Of a stretch of DNA of 64,000 bases, positions 2,980 to 50,090 are shown piece after piece. The position numbers and the translations under genes are program-made. Each line of letters starts with the position of its first letter. Position 1 is the first letter of the stretch. The DNA is taken from contig NZ_CP020612.1 of NCBI RefSeq assembly GCF_002105555.1, forward strand, positions 2,038,001-2,102,000, in the 5' to 3' direction. A model generated the notes under the pieces. The model ran no database searches. It had not been told where the DNA came from and worked only from the letters and a program-made list of their open reading frames with translations. Origin of the DNA: Paracoccus contaminans. GTDB lineage: Bacteria > Pseudomonadota > Alphaproteobacteria > Rhodobacterales > Rhodobacteraceae.

Positions 2980-5156
2980 GCCTTCTGCGCGCCGCCGAAG
3001 CGGCCATAGAAGCTGTCCCCCCGATCCGCCATCTGGCGCAGCAGCGCGGGCGGGGCAAAACGCTCGCCATGGCGCGCGGCCAGCCCCTCGGCGATCCGCA
3101 CCGCCTGTTCGGCGCCCAGCATGTCCAGCCAGCCGAAAGGCCCCCCCGTCCAGGGCGCAAAGCCCCAGCCGAGGATCGCGCCGACATCGCCTTCGCGGAT
3201 GTCGGTCAGAACGCCCTGTTCCAGCGCGCGCACCGCCTCGAGCGCCTGCACGAACATCAGCCGGTGCTGAACCTCGGTCAGTTCCGGCTGGTCGTCTGCG
3301 CGCGGCCATTGCTGGCCGATCCCGGACCACAGGGCCCCACGCTTGCCGGCCTCGTCATAGTCGTAAAAGCCCGCCTTGGCCTTGCGCCCCATGCGGCCCT
3401 GATCGGCCAGCCCGAAGATCACCGCGTCAACCGCGGTGTCGGGATAGGCGTCGCCCATCGCGGCGCGCGTCGCCTTGGCGATCTTGACCGCAAGGTCGAT
3501 CGAGGTTTCATCCACCAGCTGCAGCGGGCCAAGCGGCATGCCCATCATCTTGGCCGCATTCTCGATCAGCGTCGGGTTCACCCCTTCGCCGACCATGCGG
3601 ATGCCTTCGTTGATATAGGGGATGATGCAGCGGTTGGCGTAGAAGAAGCGGGCATCGTTGACGACGATGGGCGTCTTGCGGATCTGGCGCACGAAATCCA
3701 GCGCCTTGGCCACCGCCCGCTCGCCCGTCTGCTTGCCGCGGATGATCTCGACCAGGTTCATCCTGTCCACGGGGCTGAAGAAGTGGATGCCGATGAACTG
3801 TCCGGGCCGCGCGCTGGCCCGTGCCAGATCGCTGATCGGCAGGGTCGAGGTGTTGGTGGCAAAGATCGCCTCTGCCGGGATCACCGCCTCGGCCCTGGCC
3901 GTCACCTCGGCCTTGACGCCGGGATCCTCGAACACCGCCTCGACGATCAGGTCGCAGCCCTCCAGCGCGGCATAATCGGTGGTGGCATGGATGCGGGCCA
4001 GAACCTCGGCCTTCTTCTCCTCGGTCAGCTTCCGGCGGGCGATGCCCTTGTCCAGCAGCCCGGCCGAATGCGCCTTGCCCCGATCCGCCGCCTCTTGCGT
4101 CGCATCGATCAGCACCACCTCGATGCCTGCCTGGGCCGACACATGGGCGATGCCCGCGCCCATCATCCCGGCGCCCAGGATGCCCACCTTGCGGACCTTT
4201 TCATCCGGCACGTCCGGGCGGTTGGCGCCCTTCTCCAGCGCCTCCTTGCTGATGAACAGCGACCGGATCATGTTGCCCGAGGACGGATTCATCAGGACAT
4301 TCGTGAACCAGCGCGCCTCGATCCGCAGCGCCGTGTCGAAATCGACCTGCGCGCCTTCATAGACTGCCGACAGCAGGGCACGGGCGGCGGGATAGACACC
4401 CATCGTCCTGCCCATGACCATGGCGCTGGCGCCCACGAAGGTCATGAAGCCCGCCGGGTGATAGGGCGCGCCGCCCGGCATCTTGTAGCCCCTGGCATCC
4501 CATGGCTTCACCAGATCGGCGTCGCTCGCCTGCAGCACCCATTCGCGCGCAGCGGCGAGGGGGTCGGCCACGACCTCGTCGATGACCCCCGCTGCCTTGG
4601 CCTTGGCCGGCTCGTTCAGCTTGCCTTCCAGCAGCAGGGGCGCGGCGGCCATCGCGCCCATCTTGCGCACCAGGCGCGTGGTGCCGCCCGCGCCCGGAAA
4701 GATGCCGACCATGATCTCGGGCAGGCCGATCCTGGCCTTGGGGTTGTCGGCCGCAAAGATGCGGTGGCAGGCCAGCGGCAGCTCCAGCCCGATGCCCAGC
4801 GCCGTGCCGGGCAGGGCGGCGGCGATCGGCTTGCCGCCCTTGAGCGTCCTGGGGTCCATCCCCGCGCGTTCGATCTTGCGCAGCAGGCGGTGCAGCGACA
4901 TCACCCCGTCAAGGACCGCCTGTGCGCCGCCCTCCTTCATCCGGGCCAGCACGTTCAGGTCCATCCCGGCGGCGAAATCCGCCTTGCCGCTGGTGATGAC
5001 GATGGCCTTGACGGCCGGATCGGCCAGCGCGTCGTCCAGCAGCCCGTCTAGTTCGGCCGCGCCGTCCAGCGACAGCACGTTCATCGACTTGCCCGGCACA
5101 TCCCAGGTGATCGTGGCGACGCCCTCGGCGTCCCTCTGCATGGTGAAGTCGGTCAT
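2973..5156 (-). CDS. fadB: Bifunctional enoyl-CoA hydratase / 3-hydroxyacyl-CoA dehydrogenase (FadB/FadJ type)
   Basis: Carries out the second and third steps of fatty-acid beta-oxidation, probably in complex with the thiolase encoded upstream. The 727-residue protein has an N-terminal crotonase domain (LELPLACH and LPEIMVGIFPGAGGT carry the two catalytic glutamates). A Rossmann NAD domain starts at about residue 320 (VGILGAGMMGAGIA). The dehydrogenase signature HFFSPVDRMNLVEII contains the catalytic His/Glu pair. The C-terminal dehydrogenase repeats run to the end. The start ATG overlaps the cupin stop by four bases (ATGA), so translation is probably coupled. It is the last gene of the acyl-CoA oxidation operon. 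Confidence 0.95.
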   Translation of the reverse strand: MTDFTMQRDAEGVATITWDVPGKSMNVLSLDGAAELDGLLDDALADPAVKAIVITSGKADFAAGMDLNVLARMKEGGAQAVLDGVMSLHRLLRKIERAGMDPRTLKGGKPIAAALPGTALGIGLELPLACHRIFAADNPKARIGLPEIMVGIFPGAGGTTRLVRKMGAMAAAPLLLEGKLNEPAKAKAAGVIDEVVADPLAAAREWVLQASDADLVKPWDARGYKMPGGAPYHPAGFMTFVGASAMVMGRTMGVYPAARALLSAVYEGAQVDFDTALRIEARWFTNVLMNPSSGNMIRSLFISKEALEKGANRPDVPDEKVRKVGILGAGMMGAGIAHVSAQAGIEVVLIDATQEAADRGKAHSAGLLDKGIARRKLTEEKKAEVLARIHATTDYAALEGCDLIVEAVFEDPGVKAEVTARAEAVIPAEAIFATNTSTLPISDLARASARPGQFIGIHFFSPVDRMNLVEIIRGKQTGERAVAKALDFVRQIRKTPIVVNDARFFYANRCIIPYINEGIRMVGEGVNPTLIENAAKMMGMPLGPLQLVDETSIDLAVKIAKATRAAMGDAYPDTAVDAVIFGLADQGRMGRKAKAGFYDYDEAGKRGALWSGIGQQWPRADDQPELTEVQHRLMFVQALEAVRALEQGVLTDIREGDVGAILGWGFAPWTGGPFGWLDMLGAEQAVRIAEGLAARHGERFAPPALLRQMADRGDSFYGRFGGAQKAA

Positions 5157-5650
5157 CGGGCTGCTTCCTTCGGGTCAAGATCGCGGGGGCCTGTCCATTC
5201 GCTCCCGTCGCGGTAAGTCAGGCGGCGCTGGCCGTCATCGGTATGAAGAACCATGTCCACGTCGGCATAGGTCGCAACCTCGCGCGCCGCCTTCGTGCCG
5301 ACGATCAGAAAGCGCGCCGGGCGGCCGGAGCGGTTGACGAAACAATGCCCGTTTGGCACGCCCGCCTTCCACGCGGCACAATCGCCGGGGCGCATCGGGG
5401 TTTCGCCCTCGTTCTCGACCAGGACCAGATCGCCTTCGAGCACCATGGCGAACTCGTCCTCGCTCAGATGCCAATGGCGCAGGCTGGCCGGGGCGCCGGG
5501 CTGCAGCGTGACGATGTTGACGCCGAACTGCGTCAGCCCCGCCAGCTCGCCCAGCCGCAGGGACGAGCGCCCGGCCATCTGGCTGGCATAGGGCTCGGGA
5601 TAGATCGAGCCGGTCCTGACCGGCGCGGCGTTCGGATCGAGCTTCGGCAT
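5153..5650 (-). CDS. Small metal-binding cupin protein inside the beta-oxidation operon
   Basis: A 165-residue single-domain cupin. Motif 1 is RHWHLSEDEFAMVLEG (His-x-His and Glu ligands) and motif 2 is PGDCAAWKAGVPNGHCFVN (the P-x-G-x2-H-x3-N pattern), so a metal site looks intact. The start at 5650 shares one base with the fadA stop (TGATG), and the stop overlaps the fadB start by four bases, so it is locked between the two. Proteins of this kind are usually annotated only as cupin domain proteins. The function is unknown: an isomerase or hydrolase acting on an acyl-CoA intermediate, or a sensor, would fit the context. The frame extends further upstream, but only inside fadA. Confidence 0.85.
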   Translation of the reverse strand: MPKLDPNAAPVRTGSIYPEPYASQMAGRSSLRLGELAGLTQFGVNIVTLQPGAPASLRHWHLSEDEFAMVLEGDLVLVENEGETPMRPGDCAAWKAGVPNGHCFVNRSGRPARFLIVGTKAAREVATYADVDMVLHTDDGQRRLTYRDGSEWTGPRDLDPKEAAR

Positions 5651-6861
5651 CACACCCTCTCGATGATCGTCGCCGCGCCCATGCCCGATGCGACGCACAG
5701 CGTGGCAAGGCCGATCTGCTTGTCCTGCCGCTCGAGCTCGTCCAGCAGCGTGCCGATGATGATGGCGCCCGTCGCGCCCAGCGGATGGCCCATGGCGATG
5801 GCGCCGCCATTGACGTTCACGATCTGCGGCGAGACATCGAAGGCCTGCATGAAGCGCAGCACGACGGCCGAGAACGCCTCGTTCACCTCGAACAGGTCGA
5901 TGTCGCCGATCGCGAGGCCGCTTTCGCGCAGGATCTTTTCCGTCACCGGGACCGGGCCGGTCAGCATGATCGTCGGATCGGTGCCGATCTTGGCGGTGGC
6001 GCGGATGCGGGCGCGCGGTTCAAGGCCGCGCGCCTCGCCCCATTCGCGGCTGCCGATCAGCACCGCCCCGGCCCCGTCCACGATCCCCGACGAGTTTCCG
6101 GCGTGGTGGATGTGCTCGATATGGCCAAGATGCGGGTATTTCAGCATCGCCACCTTGTCGAAGCCCGGCATCACCTCGCCCATGTCCTTGAAGGCGGGCT
6201 TGAGCGCGGCAAGGCTTTCGGCGGTGGTGCCGGGGCGCATGTGTTCGTCGCGGTCCAGGATCGTCAGCCCGTTCTGGTCCAGCACCGGGACGATGGATCG
6301 GGCAAAGCGCCCCTCGGCCCAGGCCTCGGCGGCACGGCGCTGCGATTCGGCGGCCAGCGCGTCGGCCTGCTGGCGGGTAAAGCCGTATTCGGTGGCGATG
6401 ATGTCGGCGCTGATGCCCTGCGGGACGAAATGGCTTTTCATGGCCAGGCTGGGATCGGCAGCGATGGCGGCGCCGTCGCTGCCCATGGGAACGCGGCTCA
6501 TCATCTCGACCCCGCCGGCGATATAGGCAGCGCCCGCGCCGGCCCTGACCTGGCTGGCGGCAAGGTTCACCGCCTCCATGCCGCTGGCGCAAAAGCGGTT
6601 GATCGACAGCCCCGGAATCGACTGGTCGAGATCGGATGCCAGCACCGCCGAGCGGGCCAGGCAGCCGCCCTGTTCCATGACCTGCGTGACATTGCCCCAG
6701 ATCACGTCCTCGACCGCATGGTCGTCCAGCCCGTTGCGGTCCTTGAGGGCGTTCAGCAGCCGCGCGGACAGCGCCAGCGCGGTGACCTCGTGCAGGCTGC
6801 CGTCACTGCGCCCCTTGCCGCGCGGCGTGCGGGCGGCGTCATAGATATAGGCCTCGGTCAT
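5650..6861 (-). CDS. fadA: Acetyl-CoA C-acyltransferase (3-ketoacyl-CoA thiolase)
   Basis: Final thiolytic step of beta-oxidation, releasing acetyl-CoA. The start at 6861 is chosen because aaggagg lies just upstream and the protein begins MTEAYIYDAARTPRGKG, typical for thiolases; this gives 403 residues. The acylated cysteine is in INRFCASGMEAV at about residue 90. The C-terminal active-site elements are NGGAIAMGHPLGATG (His) and LCVASGMGAA (second Cys). It is the first gene of a tightly coupled fadA-cupin-fadB unit. The 322-base gap upstream contains two repeat elements and a small palindrome, so a promoter of its own is possible. Confidence 0.95.
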   Translation of the reverse strand: MTEAYIYDAARTPRGKGRSDGSLHEVTALALSARLLNALKDRNGLDDHAVEDVIWGNVTQVMEQGGCLARSAVLASDLDQSIPGLSINRFCASGMEAVNLAASQVRAGAGAAYIAGGVEMMSRVPMGSDGAAIAADPSLAMKSHFVPQGISADIIATEYGFTRQQADALAAESQRRAAEAWAEGRFARSIVPVLDQNGLTILDRDEHMRPGTTAESLAALKPAFKDMGEVMPGFDKVAMLKYPHLGHIEHIHHAGNSSGIVDGAGAVLIGSREWGEARGLEPRARIRATAKIGTDPTIMLTGPVPVTEKILRESGLAIGDIDLFEVNEAFSAVVLRFMQAFDVSPQIVNVNGGAIAMGHPLGATGAIIIGTLLDELERQDKQIGLATLCVASGMGAATIIERV

Positions 6862-6885: not shown

Positions 6886-6936
6886 CCGGGGGCTTCGCGC
6901 CCCCGGACCCCCGCGGGATATTTGCATGCAGAAGAA
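6886..6936 (-). repeat. Dispersed element, full copy A: hairpin plus TTCTTCTGCA...AAATATCC core
   Basis: Read on the minus strand, the element runs from a 21-base core (6936 to 6916; begins TTCTTCTGCA and ends AAATATCC) into a C/G spacer and a hairpin with 8-base arms (CCGGGGGC at 6886-6893 and GCCCCCGG at 6899-6906, loop ttcgc). The same arrangement occurs after the cation-efflux gene near 54.6 kb. It lies between the acyl-CoA dehydrogenase stop and the fadA start and is oriented with transcription. Similar GC hairpins next to an AT-rich core recur in Rhodobacteraceae intergenic DNA as far as I remember. A role in transcript ends is plausible but unproven. Confidence 0.7.
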
Positions 6937-6944
6937 TGGATGCA

Positions 6945-6961
6945 GTTTACGATTCGGTAAC
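6945..6961. promoter_or_regulatory. Possible operator upstream of fadA
   Basis: GTTTACGATTCGGTAAC has TTAC/GTAA arms around a six-base centre and lies about 85 bases upstream of the fadA start. MerR-type acyl-CoA regulators in alphaproteobacteria (LiuR-like) recognise TTTACG-containing palindromes, and a MerR gene lies in the same cluster. The match is partial and only one copy was found. Confidence 0.3.
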
Positions 6962-7096
6962 CGCCCCTTGTCCATGATGACCACGCGGAACAGGCTGGGA
7001 AGCCGATGGCCGCTGCAGGAGAAAGCCCCGGACGGCGCCATTGATGCCGATGGCCGCGCGCCTGTCCGGGGCCGCCCGGCGCACCGCGCCAGGCAT

Positions 7097-7117
7097 TTCT
7101 TCTGCACGAAAATATCC
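7097..7117 (+). repeat. Dispersed element, core-only copy B
   Basis: Begins TTCTTCTGCACGA and ends AAATATCC. It differs from copies A and C by a few bases and is inverted relative to copy A, 160 bases away. The GC hairpin that follows the core in the other copies is not present; instead ccgccggaggcgccgg follows. Together with copy A it forms a long-range inverted repeat between the acyl-CoA dehydrogenase and fadA. Confidence 0.6.
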
Positions 7118-7183
7118 CCGCCGGAGGCGCCGGAGCGGTGACGGCGGCGCCGCGCCGCGGCCCTGTCAGCCGCATGGCTCGCC

Positions 7184-8959
7184 TCAGAACCGGTCCGCGG
7201 CCAGCGCCATCACCGGGTCCGCGCCCGACCGGATGCGGGCCAGATGCGTGCCCGTCATCGGCAACTGCCGCTGCATGTAATAACGCCCCGTCGCCAGCTT
7301 GGTTTCCAGGAAATCGCGCTCGCCCGTGCCGCCGTCCAGCGCCGCCTGCGCTGCCGCCGCCATCCGCGCCCACATGAACCCCAGCGCCGCATGGCCGAAC
7401 AGGTGCATGAAGTCAAAGGAACCCGCCAGCGCGTCGTCGGGGTTCTTCATGGCCCGTTCCATGAAGAACATCGCCGCCGCCTGCAGATCCTTCGACGCAG
7501 CCTTGAGCGGGTCGAGAAAGTCGCCCTTCAGCGCGGCATTGCCTTCGTTTTCCCTGATGAACGACTTGACCATGTCGAAGAAGGCCATGACATGCCGGCC
7601 CCCGTCCTGCGCCAGCTTGCGGCCCACCAGATCAAGCGCCTGCACGCCGTTCGCGCCCTCGTAGATCATCGCGATGCGGGCGTCGCGGACAAACTGCGAC
7701 ATCCCGTATTCCTCGATATAGCCGTGGCCGCCGAACACCTGCTGGGCCTGCACGGTGCCCTCGAAGCCCTTGTCGGTCAGGAAGCCCTTGATGACCGGGG
7801 TCAGCAGCGACACCAGCCCCTCGGCCGCCTCGTCGCCATGGCGGGCGCGGTCGATCAGATGCGCGGCCCAGAAGGCCAGGGCGCGCGCCCCTTCAAGGAA
7901 GGATTTCTGATCCATCAGCGCCCGCCGGATGTCGGGATGCACGATCAGCGGGTCGGCCGGGCCGGCAGGGTTCTGTGCCCCGGTCACGGCGCGGCCCTGC
8001 AGGCGCTCTTTCGCATAGAGGACGGCGTTCTGATAGGCCGCCTCGGCCACCGCATAGCCCTGCAGGCCGACACCCAGCCGCGCCTCGTTCATCATGGTGA
8101 ACATGGCGCGCATGCCCTTGTGCAGATCGCCCAGCAGCCAGCCGCGCGCCCCGTCGAAATTCATCACGCAGGTCGCGTTGCCATGGATGCCCATCTTGTG
8201 TTCCAGCGCGCCCACCGACACGCTGTTGCGCGCGCCAAGGCTGCCATCGGGGTTCACCAGGAACTTGGGGACGATGAACAGGCTGATGCCGCGCGTGCCC
8301 TCGCCCCCGCCCGGCGCCTTGGCAAGGACCAGGTGGATGACGTTGTCCGACAGGTCGTGATCGCCCGCCGAGATGAAGATCTTCTGCCCCGACAGCAGAT
8401 AGCTGCCATCCTCCTGCGGCTCGGCGCGGGTGCGCAGCATGCCTAGGTCGGTGCCGCAATGCGGCTCGGTCAGGTTCATGGTGCCGGTCCATTCGCAGGC
8501 GACCATCTTGGGCAGATAGGTCCGCTTCTGCTCGTCGGTGCCATGGGCGTGGATCGCCGAATAGGCGCCATGGGTCAGGCCCTGATACATGTTGAAGGCC
8601 ATGTTGGCGGCCACGAACATCTCGCCCGTGGCAAGGCCCAGCACATAGGGCATCCCCTGGCCGCCATAATCGGGATCGCAGTCAAGGCCCGTCCAGCCGC
8701 CATCCTTCATCGCCTGAAAGGCGGCCCAGAATCCCGAAGGGGTGCGCACGATGCCGTTTTCCAGCACGCAGCCCTCGCGGTCGCCCACCGCGTTCAGCGG
8801 GGCCAGCACGTCGCGCGCCAGCGCCCCGGCGGCGTCAAGGATGGCCTGTGTGAACGCGCGATCCAGATCGGCATGGCCGGGCAGGTCAGCATCCGAAAGG
8901 CGCAGCACATCGTGCAGCAGGAACTGCATGTCGCGGGTGGGGGCGTGATACTGGGTCAT
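7184..8959 (-). CDS. Acyl-CoA dehydrogenase, long (about 590-residue) C-terminal-domain type
   Basis: FAD-dependent first step of acyl-CoA oxidation. The start at 8959 ([18 protein letters not shown]) gives 591 residues, the usual size for the DmdC/FadE-like subfamily with an extra C-terminal domain. FAD and substrate motifs include [15 protein letters not shown] and [17 protein letters not shown]. The catalytic glutamate is in [17 protein letters not shown] at about residue 435. It is transcribed towards fadA-cupin-fadB and, with the MerR gene, belongs to the same functional block. The substrate chain length is not visible from sequence. A 3-methylmercaptopropionyl-CoA dehydrogenase role is possible for this subfamily, but nothing in the context supports it. 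Confidence 0.9.
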
Positions 8960-9234
8960 GATCGTCCTTGCGGCTGAAGTTTCCGGGCGGCCGGATCGCA
9001 AATGAGGGACCGGCTGTCACCGGCAGGGGCCGCGGCAGCATCGCGTCAGGCCCGGCGCGCAGCATCCGCGCCGCCCTGGCTGCCCGCCTCGCCCCCTGCC
9101 TGCTGCGGTCATCGACGGGGATTATAGGCTGCCGCCCGCGCACGGCACGTGGAACGCTGCGTCATGGGGCAGGGCAAGGCCGCCGCTGCCCTGGTCGGCC
9201 GGCCCGCCCCGGCGCTAGCGGCCGGGGCGATCTG
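8960..9234. other. Spacer between MerR gene and acyl-CoA dehydrogenase
   Basis: The 275 bases between the MerR stop and the acyl-CoA dehydrogenase start must hold the promoter of the dehydrogenase unless it is co-transcribed with the regulator. I see no gene, no clear palindrome and no terminator hairpin followed by T. Confidence 0.4.
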
Positions 9235-9681
9235 TCAGGGCGCCCGGCCGGGCGGGATGTCCGGCCCCGCCGCGGGCTGCGGGGTGGCGGGGGCATCGGT
9301 GCCGGGCATGGCCGCGATCAGCCCCAGCGTTTCGTCGCGCAACGCCCTCAGCTCGTTCATCGCCGCCTCGATCTCGTCGCGCTGGGCGGCCAGTACATCA
9401 AGCTGGCGCGTGGCGTTGTCGACCCAGACCTCATACTGGGCGCGGGTGCCCTGCTGCTGATAGATCAGCAGCCACTGGCGGATATCCTCAAGCGAAAAGC
9501 CAAAGCGCCGCCCGCGCATGATCAGCGTCATGCGGGCAATCTCGCGCGGGCCATACCAGCGCGCCCGCCCCTCGCGCCGCGGGCTGAGCAGCTCGATGTA
9601 TTCGTAATAGCGCAGCGTGCGGGGCGTGACCTGAAAGCGGGCGCACATCGCCTTGAAGCTGATGTAGGAACCCTCCTGCAT
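9235..9681 (-). CDS. MerR-family transcriptional regulator of the fatty-acid oxidation block
   Basis: A 148-residue DNA-binding protein. The winged-helix MerR head is clear (FKAMCARFQVTPRTLRYYEY, then RRFGFSLEDIRQWL), followed by a coiled-coil dimerisation helix (VLAAQRDEIEAAMNEL) and a short Pro/Ala-rich tail. It lacks the cysteine pattern of metal-sensing MerR proteins. Start 9681 is supported by gcaggaggacgag directly upstream. It is upstream of the acyl-CoA dehydrogenase on the same strand and divergent from the thioesterase genes. In alphaproteobacteria, MerR proteins of this kind (LiuR-like) control acyl-CoA degradation, so that is the likely role here. Confidence 0.85.
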   Translation of the reverse strand: MQEGSYISFKAMCARFQVTPRTLRYYEYIELLSPRREGRARWYGPREIARMTLIMRGRRFGFSLEDIRQWLLIYQQQGTRAQYEVWVDNATRQLDVLAAQRDEIEAAMNELRALRDETLGLIAAMPGTDAPATPQPAAGPDIPPGRAP

Positions 9682-42109: not shown

Positions 42110-42424
42110 GGCATCCCTCCGCCGGCCGTTCCGGTCCCCGATACAGCGGCCCTGCGGCTTTTGCGAGCGGTTGCGCGCGACCGCCACGGGCTGCGGGCTG
42201 CGGCGATCCCGGACAGCCCTGTTTCCGGCACTGGCGCAGAAATCGCCAGGCTGCCCTGAAAACGTCTGGAACAGCTCAGGCCGCTGACACGTTCAACGGC
42301 ACGGCAACTTGGTTTCCGACGTTCCGGTTGCCCGCCCAGGGCGCAGGGGCGCAATTGAACGGGCGCAACGGCCTGCGGGCCGGTTCGTTCCCGTGACGCG
42401 GCTGATTGCAAAAAAGGACCACCG
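42110..42424. other. Divergent promoter region between MaoC gene and amine oxidase operon
   Basis: A gene-free region of 315 bases. Noticeably more A/T than the neighbouring genes near its right end (gattgcaaaaaagg, which also supplies the ribosome-binding site of the oxidase gene). I found no clear palindrome or sigma-54 site. Confidence 0.5.
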
Positions 42425-44005
42425 ATGAATCCCGCTTATCCAACCAGACGCGCGATCCTGTCGATGATCGGCGCGACGGCAGGCGCGAGTGCCATGTATG
42501 CCGCGATGACCTCGCTGGGTCACGCTGCGGAAAGTTACTATGAGGGTCCCATCAGGCTTGAGGGGGACCCCAAGGGGGCCAGGGTGCTGATCCTGGGCGC
42601 CGGCCTGGCCGGCATGACCGCGGCGCTCGAGCTGCGCAAGGCCGGATACCAGGTCGAGATCCTCGAATACCGGGAAAAGGCCGGCGGGCGCTGCTGGACC
42701 CTGCATGCCGGCGACAGCTTCACCGAACTGGGCGGCGCGACGCAGAAGGTCGATTTCGCCGAAGGCAACTACATCAACCCCGGCCCGTGGCGCATCCCCT
42801 ACAACCACCGGGCCGTGCTGGATTACTGCAAGACCCTGGGGGTCGAGCTGGAGCCGTTCAACCAGGTCAACCACAACGCCCTGCTGCACGCCTCGGATGC
42901 CTTCGGCGGCAAGCCGCAGCGGTTCCGCGAGGTGGACACCGACTATCGCGGCAACATCTCGGAACTGCTGGCCAAGGCGGCGCAGTCCGGCGCGCTGGAC
43001 CAGCAGCTGTCGGCGGCCGACAAGGAGGCGCTGATGGCCTCGCTCAAGTCCTATGGCGCGCTGGATGACGAGTTCAATTACGAAAAGTCGCTGCACACCT
43101 CGGAATACCGCGGCTATGCCAAATGGCCCGCGGGCGGCGTCACCGCGCGGCCCGAGCCGTCCGATCTGCTGGATTTCGGCCAGATCCTGCAGTCGAAGCT
43201 GTGGAACAACCTGAACACCGGCAATCTGACCGAGTTCCAGACGACCATGTTCCAGCCCAAGGGCGGCATGGACCGCATCGCGGCGGCCTTCCAGCGCGAG
43301 GTGGGCGACCTGATCACCTTCAACGCCAAGGTCACGCAGATCAAGCAGGACGATTCCGGCGTCACCGTGACCTATATCCCCTCGACCGGCGAGGGGCAGC
43401 CGCAGACGCGGCAGGCCGACTGGTGCATCTGCACCATCCCCTTCTCGGTTCTCAGCCAGATCGAGACGGACCTGTCGCCCGAGATGCAGAGCGTTGTCGA
43501 TTCGATGCCCTATGCCGGGGCCGTCAAGTTCGGGCTGGAGTTCAAGCGCCGCTTCTGGGAGGAGGACGAGGCGATCTATGGCGGGATCAGCTATACCGAC
43601 CTGCCGATCACGCTGATCTCCTACCCCTCGACGGGTTATCACAAGCCCGGCCCGGCCGTGCTGCTGGGGGGCTATTCCTGGGGTGCCACGGCGCAGGAAT
43701 TCACCGCCATGTCGCCCGAGGACCGGGTGAAATGGGCGCTGGAATACGGCGCGCGCATCCATCCGCAGTATCGCGACGAGTTCAAGACCGGGGTTTCGGT
43801 CGTCTGGCACCGCGTTCCTTGGGTGCTGGGATGCTATGGGCTGTGGCGCGAGAAGGACAAGAACTATGACACCGCGACCAAGATCGACGGTCGCATCATG
43901 ATGGCGGGCGAACATGTGTCCTATGTCCCTGCCTGGCAGGAAGGGGCAATCACCTCGGCGCTGGATGCGATCAGCCGCCTGCATGACCGCGTCATCAACG
44001 GCTGA
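42425..44005 (+). CDS. Tat-exported flavin monoamine oxidase / amine dehydrogenase
   Basis: A 526-residue FAD flavoprotein of the amine oxidase family. The leader NPAYPTRRAILSMIG has a twin-arginine pair at residues 8-9, a hydrophobic stretch and a likely cleavage after GHA (34), so folding and FAD loading happen before export. The FAD site is VLILGAGLAGMTAALE (GxGxxG at 58-63), with GGRCWT, and the C-terminal flavin motif GRIMMAGEHVSYVPAWQEGA at 489-508. It is co-transcribed with a cytochrome c and a RidA protein, both with leaders. This suggests a dehydrogenase passing electrons to the cytochrome, like NicA2 of nicotine degraders. The amine substrate is not evident. Confidence 0.88.
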   Translation: MNPAYPTRRAILSMIGATAGASAMYAAMTSLGHAAESYYEGPIRLEGDPKGARVLILGAGLAGMTAALELRKAGYQVEILEYREKAGGRCWTLHAGDSFTELGGATQKVDFAEGNYINPGPWRIPYNHRAVLDYCKTLGVELEPFNQVNHNALLHASDAFGGKPQRFREVDTDYRGNISELLAKAAQSGALDQQLSAADKEALMASLKSYGALDDEFNYEKSLHTSEYRGYAKWPAGGVTARPEPSDLLDFGQILQSKLWNNLNTGNLTEFQTTMFQPKGGMDRIAAAFQREVGDLITFNAKVTQIKQDDSGVTVTYIPSTGEGQPQTRQADWCICTIPFSVLSQIETDLSPEMQSVVDSMPYAGAVKFGLEFKRRFWEEDEAIYGGISYTDLPITLISYPSTGYHKPGPAVLLGGYSWGATAQEFTAMSPEDRVKWALEYGARIHPQYRDEFKTGVSVVWHRVPWVLGCYGLWREKDKNYDTATKIDGRIMMAGEHVSYVPAWQEGAITSALDAISRLHDRVING

Positions 44006-44022
44006 ACAAAGGAATGACACCG

Positions 44023-44517
44023 ATGAAACGTCATATCGCGCTTGTCCTTGCCCTGCTGCCATCGCTGTCGCTGGCGGAAACCAATTCCGAGCTGTCGGCC
44101 GTGACCACGAACAAGACCCGCGAGCCGCAGCCCGAAGCCTTTGTCACGTTCAAGCCCGACGCTTTCGAGCAGCGGCTGTTCCTCAACCCCGACAAGATCA
44201 GCCAGACCGATGGCGAGGGCGTCTACAAGGCGCTGTGCGCCGGCTGCCACATGCCTGCCCGCGAAGGCGCCGTCGGCGCCGGCAGGTATCCGGCGCTGGC
44301 GGGGAACGAGAACGTCATGAACGGCGATTATCCCGTCACTGTCATCGTTCACGGGCAAAAGGCCATGCCGCCCTTTGGCGATATCCTGGACGATGACCAG
44401 ATCGTCGCGGTGGTATCCTATCTGCAGAAGGATTTCCCCAAGGACCAGGTGTTCCCGGCCACCCGGGAAAGCGTGCAGGCCGCGCGCGAATCCGCGCCGC
44501 CCGCACCGCAGGAATGA
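44023..44517 (+). CDS. Periplasmic mono-haem cytochrome c, probable electron acceptor of the amine oxidase
   Basis: A 164-residue class I cytochrome c. The signal peptide KRHIALVLALLPSLSLA is followed by mature sequence from Glu19. Haem attachment is Cys72-x2-Cys75-His76 (ALCAGCHMPA) and the distal ligand is probably Met115 (GQKAMPPFGD). About 50 residues precede the cytochrome domain. The start at 44023 leaves a nine-base gap after aaagga; ATG 44014 in frame is the alternative. It lies 17 bases after the oxidase gene. Its stop overlaps the earliest possible RidA start. Confidence 0.9.
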   Translation: MKRHIALVLALLPSLSLAETNSELSAVTTNKTREPQPEAFVTFKPDAFEQRLFLNPDKISQTDGEGVYKALCAGCHMPAREGAVGAGRYPALAGNENVMNGDYPVTVIVHGQKAMPPFGDILDDDQIVAVVSYLQKDFPKDQVFPATRESVQAARESAPPAPQE

Positions 44518-44546
44518 TCCGCAAGAATGCTGAAAAGGAGAATGTC

Positions 44547-45038
44547 TTGAAACGCTTCATGCTCTGCGCCGCGCTGCTGGCGGCCTCTGCCGGAACGGCG
44601 ATGGCGCAAGATGTGGTTCGCCACCCGATCCCGAATTCGGACTTTCCGATCGCCCAGGCCATCGAGATCCCGGCCGGGATGACGCGGGTTCTGGTCAGCG
44701 GCACCGTGCCCTCGGTCATGGACCAGAACGCCGACCCCAAGACCGCGGCCGCCTATGGCGCTGATACCGAGGCGCAGACCGTGAACGTGATGAAGGGGAT
44801 CGAAGCCAAACTGAAGGACATGGGCCTTGGCCTTGGCGACGTGGTCAAGCTGCAGGTCTATCTGGTGGCGCCCGAAGGGGCGCAGGCGATGGACTTTGCC
44901 GGCTTCATGAAGGGCTACACGCAGTTCTTCGGCCCGGGAAAGCAGACCAACCTGCCGACCCGGTCCGTCTTCGAGGTGGCCGGGCTGGCCAACCCCGCCT
45001 TTCTGGTCGAGATCGAGGCCGAAGCGGTGCGCAAATAG
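44547..45038 (+). CDS. RidA-family imine deaminase with a signal peptide
   Basis: A 163-residue YjgF/RidA/UK114 protein. RidA proteins hydrolyse reactive imines and enamines. The family signature LPTRSVFEVAGL plus VEIEAEA contains the catalytic arginine (Arg139), so it looks active. Unlike ordinary RidA it has a Sec signal (MKRFMLCAALLAASAGTAMA, cleavage before QD). TTG 44547 is chosen for the aaaaggag site seven bases upstream. ATG 44514, overlapping the cytochrome stop, would add 11 residues but keep the signal. It would act in the periplasm on the imine made by the oxidase. Confidence 0.9.
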   Translation: MKRFMLCAALLAASAGTAMAQDVVRHPIPNSDFPIAQAIEIPAGMTRVLVSGTVPSVMDQNADPKTAAAYGADTEAQTVNVMKGIEAKLKDMGLGLGDVVKLQVYLVAPEGAQAMDFAGFMKGYTQFFGPGKQTNLPTRSVFEVAGLANPAFLVEIEAEAVRK

Positions 45039-45061
45039 CGCCCTGACAGGCGCTGGCTGAG

Positions 45062-45097
45062 GGCGGGGGCGGGGCCGGCATCGGCTCCGCCCCCGCC
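45062..45097. terminator. Strong 16-base-pair hairpin after the amine oxidase operon
   Basis: Arms 45062-45077 and 45082-45097 pair over 16 positions with one G-T pair, closed by a GCAT tetraloop. The outer 11 bases (GGCGGGGGCGG / CCGCCCCCGCC) are a perfect match. No T-tract follows. Likely the transcript end of the operon. Confidence 0.6.
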
Positions 45098-45154
45098 ATG
45101 ATCGGGAGCCTGCCAGCCCCTATGCGCCGGCTATGGCCTGCGCTAGGCTGCGGC

Positions 45155-45337
45155 ATGGCCGAGATCACCAACCTCAACCGTTTCCGCAAGGACAAGGCCC
45201 GCGCCGAGCGTCGCCGCCAGGGCGATGCGAACGCCGCCCGCTTCGGCCGCAGCCGCGCGCAGAAAGAGGCCGAGGACGCCGAACGCGCCCGTGCCGAGCG
45301 AACGCTGGAGCAGCATCGCAAGGCCGATGAAGACTGA
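45155..45337 (+). CDS. Small highly charged DUF4169 protein
   Basis: A 60-residue protein (MAEITNLNRFRKDKARAERR) that is almost entirely charged helix (Arg/Lys/Glu/Ala). DUF4169 proteins are found in Rhodobacteraceae and relatives, usually upstream of a ribbon-helix-helix gene, as here. The ATG at 45155 is the start that keeps only the conserved part. No function is known. Confidence 0.8.
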   Translation: MAEITNLNRFRKDKARAERRRQGDANAARFGRSRAQKEAEDAERARAERTLEQHRKADED

Positions 45338-47185: not shown

Positions 47186-48244
47186 TCAGCCCCCCGCACC
47201 CGACAGGCGCGCCAGAACGCCCGCGCGGGTGACGCGCCCGCCCCCTTCGACGGGCAGCGCCTCGGCACGGGTCAGCGCGGCCATCACCGCGCGCACCGGC
47301 ATCCCCGCAGGCAGCGGCTCGCCCGGCGCGCTGCCCGGCTCGGCCAGATCGGCGGCGGTCAGCACCACCAGCGGGTCCATGTGGGCGACGAAATCGGCGA
47401 CATAGGCGCTGGCGGGGGCGCGGATGATCTCGCGCGCGGCGCCGGTCTGGACGATGCGCCCGCCTTCCATCAGGGCGATGCGGTTGCCCAGCTTGAACGC
47501 CTCGTCCAGATCGTGGCTGACGAACAGGATCGTGCGGCGCGCCCGCGCCTGCAGCTCCAGCAGATCGTCCTGCAACCGGCTGCGGATCAGGGGGTCGAGG
47601 GCGCTGAACGGCTCGTCCATCAGCAGGATCGGGGCGTCAGTGGCAAAGGCGCGGGCAAGGCCCACGCGCTGCTGCATTCCCCCCGACAGATCGCCCACCC
47701 GCCGGTCGGCCCAGTCCGACAGGCCGACGGTTTCCAGTTCGGCATCCACCTTGGCCCGGCGCTGGCTGCGCGTCTGGCCGGCCAGTTCCAGCCCAAGCCC
47801 GACATTTTCCCGCACCGTCCGCCAGGGCAGCAGGCCGAACTGCTGGAACACCATCGCCACATGGCGCAGGCGCAGCTGGCGCAGCGTCTGGGGATCGGCA
47901 TGGGTGACGCTGACCATCTCCTCGCCCATGCGCACGCGCGCCTCGCCCCGCGCCACCGGGTTCAGCCCGTTGACCGCCCGCAGCAGGGTCGATTTGCCCG
48001 ACCCCGACAGGCCCATCAGCACCAGGATCTCGCCCTCGGCCACGGTCAGCGAGCAGTTGTGAACGCCCATCGTCTGGCCCGTCGCCTCGCGGATCGGGCC
48101 GCGGTCCAGCCCCTGATCGGCCAGCGCGAGCGCGCGGGCAGGGCGGTCGCCGAAGACGATCGAGACATTGTCGAAGGCGACCGCCGTGCGGGCGCCCGCC
48201 TCGGGCGCCAGGGGGGCGCTGGGCCGCCGGGGATCGCCGCTCAT
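47186..48244 (-). CDS. choV: Choline ABC transporter ATP-binding protein
   Basis: A 352-residue ATPase of the glycine-betaine/choline type. Walker A is LMGLSGSGKSTLLRAVNGLN, the Q-loop is in MVFQQFGLLPWRTV, the signature is DLSGGMQQRVGLARAFATD, Walker B is ILLMDEPFSALDP, with SHDLDEAFKLGNRI after it. The C-terminal CBS-like region seen in ProV is short, as in ChoV. The start overlaps the choW stop by four bases. Last gene of choXWV. Confidence 0.93.
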   Translation of the reverse strand: MSGDPRRPSAPLAPEAGARTAVAFDNVSIVFGDRPARALALADQGLDRGPIREATGQTMGVHNCSLTVAEGEILVLMGLSGSGKSTLLRAVNGLNPVARGEARVRMGEEMVSVTHADPQTLRQLRLRHVAMVFQQFGLLPWRTVRENVGLGLELAGQTRSQRRAKVDAELETVGLSDWADRRVGDLSGGMQQRVGLARAFATDAPILLMDEPFSALDPLIRSRLQDDLLELQARARRTILFVSHDLDEAFKLGNRIALMEGGRIVQTGAAREIIRAPASAYVADFVAHMDPLVVLTAADLAEPGSAPGEPLPAGMPVRAVMAALTRAEALPVEGGGRVTRAGVLARLSGAGG

Positions 48245-49092
48245 GAACGTTTCCTGCGCATGGCGAACATCCGGTCCAGGATGATGGCGACGACCACGAT
48301 GACAAAGCCCGATTCAAACCCAAGCGCCGTGTTGACGCTGTTGAGCGCGCGCACCACCGGCACGCCCAGCCCCGCAGCCCCGACCAGCGCCGCGATCACG
48401 ACCATCGACAGCGACAGCATGATCGTCTGGTTCAGCCCCGCCATGATCTGCGGCAGGGCGCTGGGCAGCTCCACCTTCCACAGAAGCTGCCGGGGGGTCG
48501 CGCCAAAGGCGCGGGCCGCTTCGGTCAGGGGCGCGGGGGTCGAGGATATGCCCAGCCATGTCAGCCGGATCGGCGCGGGCAGCACGAAGATCACCGTGGC
48601 GATCAGGCCCGGCACCGTTCCGATCCCGAAAAAGACGATCGCCGGGATCAGATAGACGAAGGTGGGCAGCGTCTGCATCAGGTCCAGCAGCGGCTGGACA
48701 TAGCGGTAAAGCCGCGGCCGGTGGGCCAGCGCGATGCCTGCCGGCACCCCCAGCGCCATGCACATGATGCAGGCCGAGAGCACAAGGGTCAGCGACTGCA
48801 TCGTCTCGTCCCAATAGCCCTGGTTGAGGATGAACAGGAACCCGACCGCAACCCACAGGCAGGTGCGCCAGCTGCGCCGCAGAACCCAGGCCAGCCCGAC
48901 CGCCAGCGCGGTGAACAGCAGCGGATGGGGAAGCTCAAGCGCCGTCTGGATGGCCGCGATCAGCCTGTCCAGCATGGCCGCGGCCGCGTCGAACAGCGGG
49001 CCTGCATGCGCCTTGAGCCAGTCAAAGCCAAGCCGCGCCGTCTGCCCGACAGGCAGCTTGTGATCGGTCAGCAGGGCGGTCAGCCGGTCCAT
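48241..49092 (-). CDS. choW: Choline ABC transporter permease
   Basis: A 283-residue inner-membrane permease with about six to seven hydrophobic segments. The binding-protein-dependent transport motif is EAARAFGATPRQLLWKVELP, the loop that contacts the ATPase. It is typical in size for ChoW, and its start is two bases after choX. It takes choline from the periplasmic binding protein. Confidence 0.93.
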   Translation of the reverse strand: MDRLTALLTDHKLPVGQTARLGFDWLKAHAGPLFDAAAAMLDRLIAAIQTALELPHPLLFTALAVGLAWVLRRSWRTCLWVAVGFLFILNQGYWDETMQSLTLVLSACIMCMALGVPAGIALAHRPRLYRYVQPLLDLMQTLPTFVYLIPAIVFFGIGTVPGLIATVIFVLPAPIRLTWLGISSTPAPLTEAARAFGATPRQLLWKVELPSALPQIMAGLNQTIMLSLSMVVIAALVGAAGLGVPVVRALNSVNTALGFESGFVIVVVAIILDRMFAMRRKRS

Positions 49093-49094
49093 CC

Positions 49095-50033
49095 TCAGTC
49101 GCCCAGCGCGCCCGCCAGCGCGGCCCCGGCATCCTGGCCGTCAAAGGTGGTCACGCCCGCCAGCCACGGGGCCGCAGCCTCGGGATGGGCCTTCAGCCAT
49201 GCCTGCGCCGCCTTGGCCGGGTCCTGCCCGTCGTTCAGGATCGCGCCCATCACCTCGTTTTCCATCGGCAGGGTGAAGACGAGATTGGACAGCAGCCTGC
49301 CCATGTTGGGGCATTCGGCCGAATAGCCCGCGCGCGTGACGGTATGGACCTCGGCCCCGCCCAGATTGGGGCCGAACACCTCATCCCCGCCGGGCAGGTA
49401 GGTCATCTGAAAGCGGCTGTTCATCGGGTGCGGCTCCCACCCCAGGAAGACCACGGGCTTGCCGGCCGCGTCGGCGCGCGCGACCTGCGCCAGCATGCCC
49501 TGTTCCGAGGATTCGACGATCTCGAAGGTGCCCAGCCCGAACTTGTCACGGGCCACCATGTCCAGCAGCAGGCGGTTGCCGTCATTGCCCGGTTCGATCC
49601 CATAGATCTTGCCGTCCAGTTCCTTCTTGTGCGCGGCGATGCCGGCGAAATCCCGGATGCCCAGATCGGCGCCGGCCTTGTTGGTGGCCAGGGTGTATTT
49701 CGCCCCCGTCAGGTTAGCCCCCAGCACCGCAACGGCCCCGCTGTCGGCATAGGGCTTGATGTCGGCGGTCATGGTCGGCATCCACAGGCCCAGGAACACG
49801 TCCAGATCATCCGTGGACAGGGCCGAGAACGTCACCGGCAGCGACAGCACCGTGATGTTCGGCTGATAGCCCAGTGCCTTGAGCACCGTCGCGGTCAGCG
49901 CCGTGGTGGCGGTGATGTCGGTCCAGCCGACATCGGACAGGCGCACCGTCCGGCAGGCCGCAGGCTCGGCCGCGATGGCGGCGGCGGGCGCGCCCAGGGC
50001 CGCCAGCGCGATAAGGATGCTGCGAAGGATCAT
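49095..50033 (-). CDS. choX: Choline ABC transporter periplasmic binding protein
   Basis: A 312-residue protein with a Sec signal (ILRSILIALAALGAPAAAIA, cleavage before AEPAACRTVR). Aromatic residues typical of quaternary-amine cages are visible: Trp in VRLSDVGWTD, Trp in VFLGLWMPTM and Trp in VFLGWEPHPM. This agrees with ChoX of Sinorhizobium. The start at 50033 follows aaagga by eight bases. It is divergent from betI, with a BetI-like palindrome in the gap, so induction by choline is likely. Confidence 0.93.
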   Translation of the reverse strand: MILRSILIALAALGAPAAAIAAEPAACRTVRLSDVGWTDITATTALTATVLKALGYQPNITVLSLPVTFSALSTDDLDVFLGLWMPTMTADIKPYADSGAVAVLGANLTGAKYTLATNKAGADLGIRDFAGIAAHKKELDGKIYGIEPGNDGNRLLLDMVARDKFGLGTFEIVESSEQGMLAQVARADAAGKPVVFLGWEPHPMNSRFQMTYLPGGDEVFGPNLGGAEVHTVTRAGYSAECPNMGRLLSNLVFTLPMENEVMGAILNDGQDPAKAAQAWLKAHPEAAAPWLAGVTTFDGQDAGAALAGALGD

Positions 50034-50070
50034 GGCCGTCGTCCTTTCCAGATGGGCCTGCCCGGTGATG

Positions 50071-50090
50071 TTGATTGACGGATCAATCAA
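50071..50090. promoter_or_regulatory. BetI-type operator between choXWV and betI
   Basis: A perfect 8-base palindrome TTGATTGA / TCAATCAA separated by CGGA. It lies 38 bases from the choX start and 49 bases from the betI start. The sequence resembles known BetI sites, so BetI probably represses both directions when choline is absent. Confidence 0.8.

Follow-up and report, generated by a model that had tools for sequence, protein, structure and literature searches.

Clusters encoding an L-amino-acid oxidase (LAAO), a cytochrome c and a Rid protein have been known genetically since 2016, when the lao-cccA-ridA cluster (GDI2456-GDI2455-GDI2454) of Gluconacetobacter diazotrophicus PAL5 was linked to auxin (Rodrigues 2016, PMC5053998; this and the other papers are cited from the parts available to us). 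Two insertions in lao abolish indole-3-acetic acid (IAA) and leave tryptophan unused, and in the lao mutant tested the lao, cccA and ridA transcripts drop together, so the phenotype belongs to the cluster and not to lao alone. The authors state that cytochrome c maturation (ccm) mutants of the same organism were previously known to make 5% of wild-type auxin, that the arrangement also occurs in Caulobacter and Xanthomonas, and that the cytochrome and RidA may assist the LAAO. Here we describe an operon with the same gene types, in the same order and on one strand, at positions 42,425 to 45,038 of a 64,000-nucleotide window of Paracoccus contaminans (contig NZ_CP020612.1, positions 2,038,001 to 2,102,000 of the forward strand), which we read, with a probability of roughly 0.78, as a periplasmic respiratory L-amino-acid deamination unit of the lao-cccA-ridA type.

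Three other described systems resemble parts of this operon. In NicA2/Pnao with CycN and related cytochrome-using dehydrogenases, as in the window, an FAD-dependent member of the amine oxidase superfamily bearing a twin-arginine (Tat) signal is encoded next to a cytochrome c with a Sec signal, and such pairs were found to be good candidates for cytochrome-using dehydrogenases, the cytochrome being the stronger predictor (Akram 2025, PMC12224317). These enzymes apparently differ from ours in lineage and substrate class, and RidA is not named in the main text of that paper. Chlamydomonas LAO1 with LAO2/RIDA (PMC10805672) likewise pairs a periplasmic LAAO with RidA, and its likeness to the G. diazotrophicus cluster is remarked on there; unlike the window system it is eukaryotic, and the available parts of the paper describe formation of H2O2 and no cytochrome partner. 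Finally, PSPTO3006 and PFL1385 are assigned to Rid3, a group whose members hydrolyse iminoarginine as well as the imines produced by LAAO (Hodge-Hanson and Downs 2017, PMC5619798).

The original prediction for this locus, made from its sequence, saw an exported amine dehydrogenase system with no described counterpart. The gene types and mutant phenotypes reported in 2016 supply such a precedent. That report, in the parts available, notes the Tat signal of the LAAO and argues a periplasmic location for that protein only, and we found there no mention of export of the Rid partner; nor did we find export of all three partners in the open-access literature searched.

Results

Three adjacent genes with export signals

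The three genes are adjacent on the forward strand, as originally predicted, and the starts chosen from the list of open reading frames (ORFs) and their translations leave gaps of 17 and 29 bases (Table 1). A Shine-Dalgarno-like box can be read ahead of each. An alternative cytochrome start at 44014 is possible, but directly abuts its AAAGGA box, while the Rid gene appears to start at a TTG behind AAGGAG, given that the longer ORF from the ATG at 44514 would overlap the cytochrome stop. We also considered, and reject, the idea that the trio is adjacent by chance; the genome holds three PF01042 genes in 3.03 Mb, and we estimate the odds of finding one within 4 kb at about 1%.

That all three products are exported, a further claim of the original prediction, is upheld by a Tat-like motif, Sec-type stretches and the conservation of both among relatives. 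It is important to note that these calls rest on motif, hydrophobicity and conservation, and that the starts of the relatives were picked automatically. The N-terminus of the flavoprotein carries the Tat-like PTRRAILSM, and the expression RR-x-[LFIM]-[LIFM] matches 86 of 95 relatives' flavoproteins (loci L001-L015 and L031-L110). Seven of the nine misses are Bradyrhizobium proteins with a start mis-chosen downstream, the upstream start giving VIRRRDLLALIG; the other two are L107, cut by a contig end, and L015, which reads TRRDVLY. The export segments of the cytochrome, MKRHIALVLALLPSLSLA, and of the Rid protein, MKRFMLCAALLAASAGTAMA, are of the Sec type. Tat signals are less hydrophobic than Sec signals, and a strongly hydrophobic N-terminus (11-residue mean of at least 1.6) was found in 53/95 flavoproteins, 89/92 cytochromes and 78/78 Rid proteins. 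On the last figure we reject the reading of a cytoplasmic Rid protein with a mis-called start. An AxA site is present in 74 of the 78 Rid relatives, and we saw no signal peptide by eye in the genome's other two PF01042 proteins.

The flavoprotein resembles an L-amino-acid oxidase

Pfam Amino_oxidase matches the flavoprotein with 199 bits, and the fold of Rhodococcus opacus LAAO (2jae) spans its whole chain at 35% identity. The likeness extends to the substrate site: Arg123 aligns with what we take to be the carboxylate-binding Arg84 of the R. opacus enzyme, and Tyr417 and Trp504 with what are presumably its Tyr371 and Trp467, all three being invariant in the cassette sequences compared. NicA2 is missing from the 60 highest-scoring of 98 sequence matches and from the 50 folds listed, which leaves room for a relation to it. 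By sequence, fold and aligned active-site residues the enzyme is thus LAAO-like, and an L-amino acid is most likely its substrate. Because of this likeness the polyamines and the tyramine-like or pyrrolidine-type amines originally proposed are unlikely substrates. Lys368, near flavin N5, is of a kind near-universal in the superfamily and cannot separate oxidase from dehydrogenase; it is probably equivalent to Lys340 of NicA2, a residue discussed in PMC12224317.

The G. diazotrophicus LAAO also has a Tat signal, with 533 aa and 34% identity to R. opacus LAAO (PMC5053998). Its cluster serves to make IAA from tryptophan, and we liken the window to it through gene types and primer-coded peptides only. 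Both GDI2456 lao primer peptides map on the window flavoprotein at an offset of +4, the forward one alone scoring 29 against a shuffle maximum of 32 (1000 shuffles); the cccA and ridA primer peptides were uninformative against the window. The forward lao primer was found in none of 397 genomes from the family to which G214, one of the genomes searched, belongs and which may not include Acetobacteraceae; a degenerate pattern made from this primer was found in none of 179 loci.

The cytochrome and the Rid protein

Pfam Cytochrome_CBB3 matches the cytochrome with 55 bits, and the protein carries a single haem-binding motif (Table 1). Ribonuc_L-PSP (PF01042) matches the Rid protein with 56.9 bits, above a cut-off of 27.3, and Arg139, Glu155 and Glu157 are unchanged across 22 aligned proteins, 21 of which have a signal peptide by eye and a few of which show a lipoprotein-like cysteine. 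When compared with solved structures only, its closest relatives are PSPTO3006 (104 bits) and PFL1385 (84 bits), the next scoring 35 bits. The protein therefore appears nearer to Rid3 than to RidA, Rid1 or Rid2. It shares the catalytic arginine with PSPTO_3006 and PFL_1385, and differs from them in being encoded with a cytochrome c and in carrying a Sec signal, although the N-terminus of PFL_1385 is also signal-like by eye.

The trio recurs in other genomes

The original prediction had proposed a search for the same neighbourhood elsewhere, and the trio does recur beyond this genome. A gene counted as a partner if it lay no more than 4 kb away on the same strand. Among 128 flavoprotein genes at 127 loci, our own included, the cytochrome is present beside 116 and Rid beside 98; 91 have the two together, and five have neither. 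The count leaves out 13 loci (12 short-flank duplicates, and L031 at a contig end) and does not include L016-L030 or L121-L139. The 128 genes correspond to 130 ORFs, as in L012 (1477-3062) and L109 (3102-4706) the flavoprotein is split into two adjacent ORFs, by assembly error or in a broken gene. All 112 flavoproteins that score at least 650 bits against the family model have a cytochrome. With L012 and L109 double-counted, the cytochrome lies downstream in 112/118, and a CxxCH falls 50-450 bp past the flavoprotein stop in 110/118.

Among the 80 named loci, which are the best 80 of 209 and thus biased towards close relatives, 79 have a cytochrome and 67 a Rid gene; the sole exception for the cytochrome is L031, the window's nearest named relative, whose record ends ∼180 bases beyond the flavoprotein. 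L016, a contig-end fragment, has both partners. Since the loci of the joint count lean to close relatives, an even sample of 299 Pseudomonadota genomes is the fairer test. Here 18 genomes, our own included, have the flavoprotein, and the 20 matches outside our own genome have a cytochrome in 14 cases, Rid in 15, both in 10 and neither in one. Some of the other genomes counted may belong to species already represented among the named records; no protein ends were identical. Conservation of the trio exceeds chance.

The named loci belong mainly to Hyphomicrobiales and Xanthomonadaceae, with 23/80 in Bradyrhizobium and 13/80 in Xanthomonas, and also to Rubellimicrobium, Inquilinus, Plastoroseomonas and Cupriavidus. 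Plastoroseomonas (L035), which has the full trio, is of the Acetobacteraceae, the family of G. diazotrophicus. The full trio also occurs in plasmid records of Sulfitobacter, Comamonas and Ketogulonicigenium, and the flavoprotein and cytochrome without Rid (its absence judged by profile) in those of Dinoroseobacter, two Deinococcus, Thiodictyon, R. tropici and Roseinatronobacter. Genome G214 (L148) holds two divergent cassettes on opposite strands, at 3904-5929 and 6912-9478, one with Rid and one without. A record titled Mycobacterium sp. KBS0706 (L056) may be mislabelled, as the N-termini of its trio are near those of Inquilinus limosus (L071, L079).

We placed these parts on a quick tree of the flavoproteins, in which 126 of the 130 ORFs were long enough and 46 tips below 74% identity were kept, rooted on R. 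opacus LAAO and with SH-aLRT support only; the position of the long branches L176, L118, L155, L160 and L175 is unsure. The tree needs two changes for the cytochrome and 10 for Rid, so that the cytochrome is close to clade-defining and Rid has been gained or lost repeatedly. Rid is also found beside deeper, cytochrome-free members (L116, L117, L153, L155-L158). In one of these, L157, Rid has no signal peptide and resembles PSPTO3006 by eye, and charged residues break up the flavoprotein's Tat region, while its sister L158 keeps both export signals; in this single case the two proteins appear to have changed compartment jointly.

Neighbouring genes

Neighbours in other genomes were clustered, and each cluster named from one scanned member. 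The flavoprotein and cytochrome of the Dinoroseobacter and Roseinatronobacter plasmids have genes for subunit I of cytochrome c oxidase close by, in the same orientation. On a plasmid of Metabacillus dongyingensis (L116, 4755-8018) an LAAO-type flavoprotein, an exported Rid, tatA and tatC follow one another, with no cytochrome within 4 kb, which seems to be a Gram-positive version bringing its own Tat translocase. An M20 peptidase with a signal-like N-terminus adjoins 20 loci, 16 of them Bradyrhizobium, while in Aminobacter, Mesorhizobium and their kin 12 loci have an M20 deacylase-like protein that lacks such a signal, and 14 have an SBP_bac_5 binding protein of the peptide type. Xanthomonas and its kin have a TonB-dependent receptor (13), a Tat-type aminotransferase (12) and azurin (12) beside the trio (examples are L084 7562-8764, L066 2511-4904 and L109 6917-7450), the aminotransferase matching NF006580 and, second best, the pyoverdine transaminase PtaA. 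Taken together, these neighbours are consistent with amino acids being liberated or captured outside the cytoplasm, and because they differ by lineage the substrate may vary likewise.

A second type of enamine deaminase stands alongside the system in 16 Bradyrhizobium loci (for example L060 3902-4666), where a gene for a CnbZ-type protein precedes that of the flavoprotein by 103-308 bases; the scanned member scores 389 bits with the CnbZ model (2-amino-5-chloromuconate deaminase), whose cut-off is 220.

In the window itself, a gene scan finds an FAS1-like dehydratase upstream of the trio on the other strand, and both YebC and a LysE-type exporter downstream. The operon seems self-contained, its flanking genes giving no clue to the substrate. 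A sigma-70 promoter scan of 42150-45200 returned no promoter-like site and a single terminator-like site, on the other strand, which is no excess over shuffles. Further away, at 47186-50090, the reverse strand carries genes of an ABC transporter whose binding protein is of the OpuAC (glycine betaine) type; we saw no connection between these genes and the trio.

Table 1. Positions of the operon's genes and functional sites within the window
Feature	Position	Strand	Remarks
Flavoprotein, predicted LAAO-type L-amino-acid dehydrogenase (lao homologue)	42425..44005	+	526 aa; ATG start
Tat-type signal peptide of flavoprotein	42425..42529	+	RR at 42446-42451; cleavage probably after GHAA; motif kept in relatives
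Arg123	42791..42793	+	Invariant in 89/89 cassette sequences; also in alignments A1 (35 sequences) and A3 (26)
Lys368, lysine near flavin N5	43526..43528	+	89/89 cassette sequences
Tyr417	43673..43675	+	89/89 cassette sequences
Trp504	43934..43936	+	89/89 cassette sequences
Predicted exported monohaem class I cytochrome c (cccA homologue)	44023..44517	+	164 aa; ATG start; Cytochrome_CBB3 and Cytochrom_C; Sec-type signal
Haem-binding motif CAGCH	44236..44250	+	Read from sequence
Predicted exported Rid3-like imine deaminase (ridA homologue)	44547..45038	+	163 aa; TTG start; Ribonuc_L-PSP; best PDB matches PSPTO3006 and PFL1385
Sec signal peptide of Rid	44547..44606	+	Probable AMA cleavage site; kept in relatives
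Catalytic-type Arg139 of Rid	44961..44963	+	Aligned with Arg of HI0719 and TdcF; 22/22 invariant

Discussion

From the genes and their order, the export signals, the LAAO fold with its substrate-site residues, the haem site and the Rid arginine, we infer the reactions, the electron route and the substrate spectrum as follows. A Tat-exported FAD enzyme of the R. opacus LAAO type would convert an L-amino acid to the 2-imino acid and pass its electrons singly to the co-encoded cytochrome c, which would hand them to the respiratory chain in place of forming H2O2. In the same compartment, the exported Rid3-like protein would hydrolyse the imino acid to the 2-oxo acid and ammonium, an activity that fits its Rid3 relatives (PMC5619798). 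Thus the original prediction survives as to the three exported partners, the probable route of electrons and the probable hydrolysis of the imine, and falls as to the substrate class and the lack of precedent.

We favour the cytochrome as electron acceptor because the operon combines the two published hallmarks of cytochrome-using enzymes, a Tat flavoprotein and an adjacent Sec cytochrome (PMC12224317). Alternatively, the enzyme might be a periplasmic L-amino-acid oxidase that uses O2 and makes H2O2, with the cytochrome as a side acceptor or a peroxide-linked partner. R. opacus LAAO, the nearest solved relative, is an oxidase for which we know of no cytochrome partner, Lys368 is retained, and some Tat relatives have Rid without a cytochrome (L116, L117, L153, L155, L156, L158); furthermore, most Tat flavin amine oxidases without a cytochrome are fast with O2 (PMC12224317). 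We nevertheless consider such an oxidase unlikely, given the cytochrome beside every flavoprotein of at least 650 bits, a trait nearly clade-defining, the cytochrome c oxidase genes added at two loci, and the auxin defect of the G. diazotrophicus ccm mutants (PMC5053998). An exported dehydrogenase acting on polyamines or on aromatic or cyclic amines is more improbable still: the superfamily is common to NicA2, Pnao and MAO, the Tat and cytochrome layout is identical (PMC12224317), and the Pfam name is Amino_oxidase, but the LAAO-like character of the flavoprotein argues against it at every level compared.

It is less improbable, though still doubtful, that the same machinery serves mainly to turn tryptophan into auxin, by way of indole-3-pyruvate, as a signal and not for catabolism; this differs from respiratory deamination in purpose, and the two estimates overlap. 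Bradyrhizobium and Xanthomonas, so prominent among the named loci, live with plants. The G. diazotrophicus lao mutants lack IAA (PMC5053998), and in Chlamydomonas a periplasmic route from tryptophan to IAA runs through LAO1 with LAO2/RIDA (PMC10805672). On the other hand, the flavoprotein and cytochrome also occur in Deinococcus, Dinoroseobacter and Ketogulonicigenium, the M20 peptidases and peptide-type binding proteins that adjoin in some lineages suggest a broader use of amino acids, and a scan of eight neighbours of the trio in the window recognised no gene for auxin.

Several observations weigh against respiratory deamination itself. Among the same eight genes there is no substrate transporter or catabolic gene evidently tied to the operon. 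The trait is patchy: of 37 genomes from the genus of the window, 13 match strongly, our own among them, and two of these carriers (L164, L165) are without Rid. Of the 116 flavoprotein genes that have a cytochrome, 25 have no Rid beside them (two of the 25, L049 and L110, have no more than 1.5 kb of sequence downstream), and Rid is therefore helpful and not obligatory. In the literature searched, we found no assay of this LAAO lineage with its own cytochrome. The kinetic survey of Akram began from NicA2 relatives and not from this lineage; within it, the B. anthina enzyme reacts with O2 besides its cytochrome, and the clade 1 pairs react only modestly with their own cytochromes (PMC12224317). 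As for G. diazotrophicus, its authors speak of an oxidase and only suggest a role for the cytochrome in electron transfer, and for insertions that also lowered cccA and ridA transcripts the available parts of the paper mention no complementation (PMC5053998).

On balance, we lean towards the view that respiratory deamination units of this kind form a widespread class of L-amino-acid dehydrogenases, distinct from the NicA2 type and lying wholly outside the inner membrane with their own cytochrome and imine hydrolase, and sometimes their own terminal oxidase or Tat translocase, which would release oxo acids and ammonium from external amino acids and feed the respiratory chain. One model would then unite bacterial auxin synthesis by lao-cccA-ridA, the cytochrome-using flavin amine dehydrogenases and the Rid imine deaminases. 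If it is true, many genes annotated as "flavin monoamine oxidase" would encode periplasmic dehydrogenases of L-amino acids that do not produce H2O2, and the loss of auxin in the cytochrome c maturation mutants of G. diazotrophicus would gain a direct cause.

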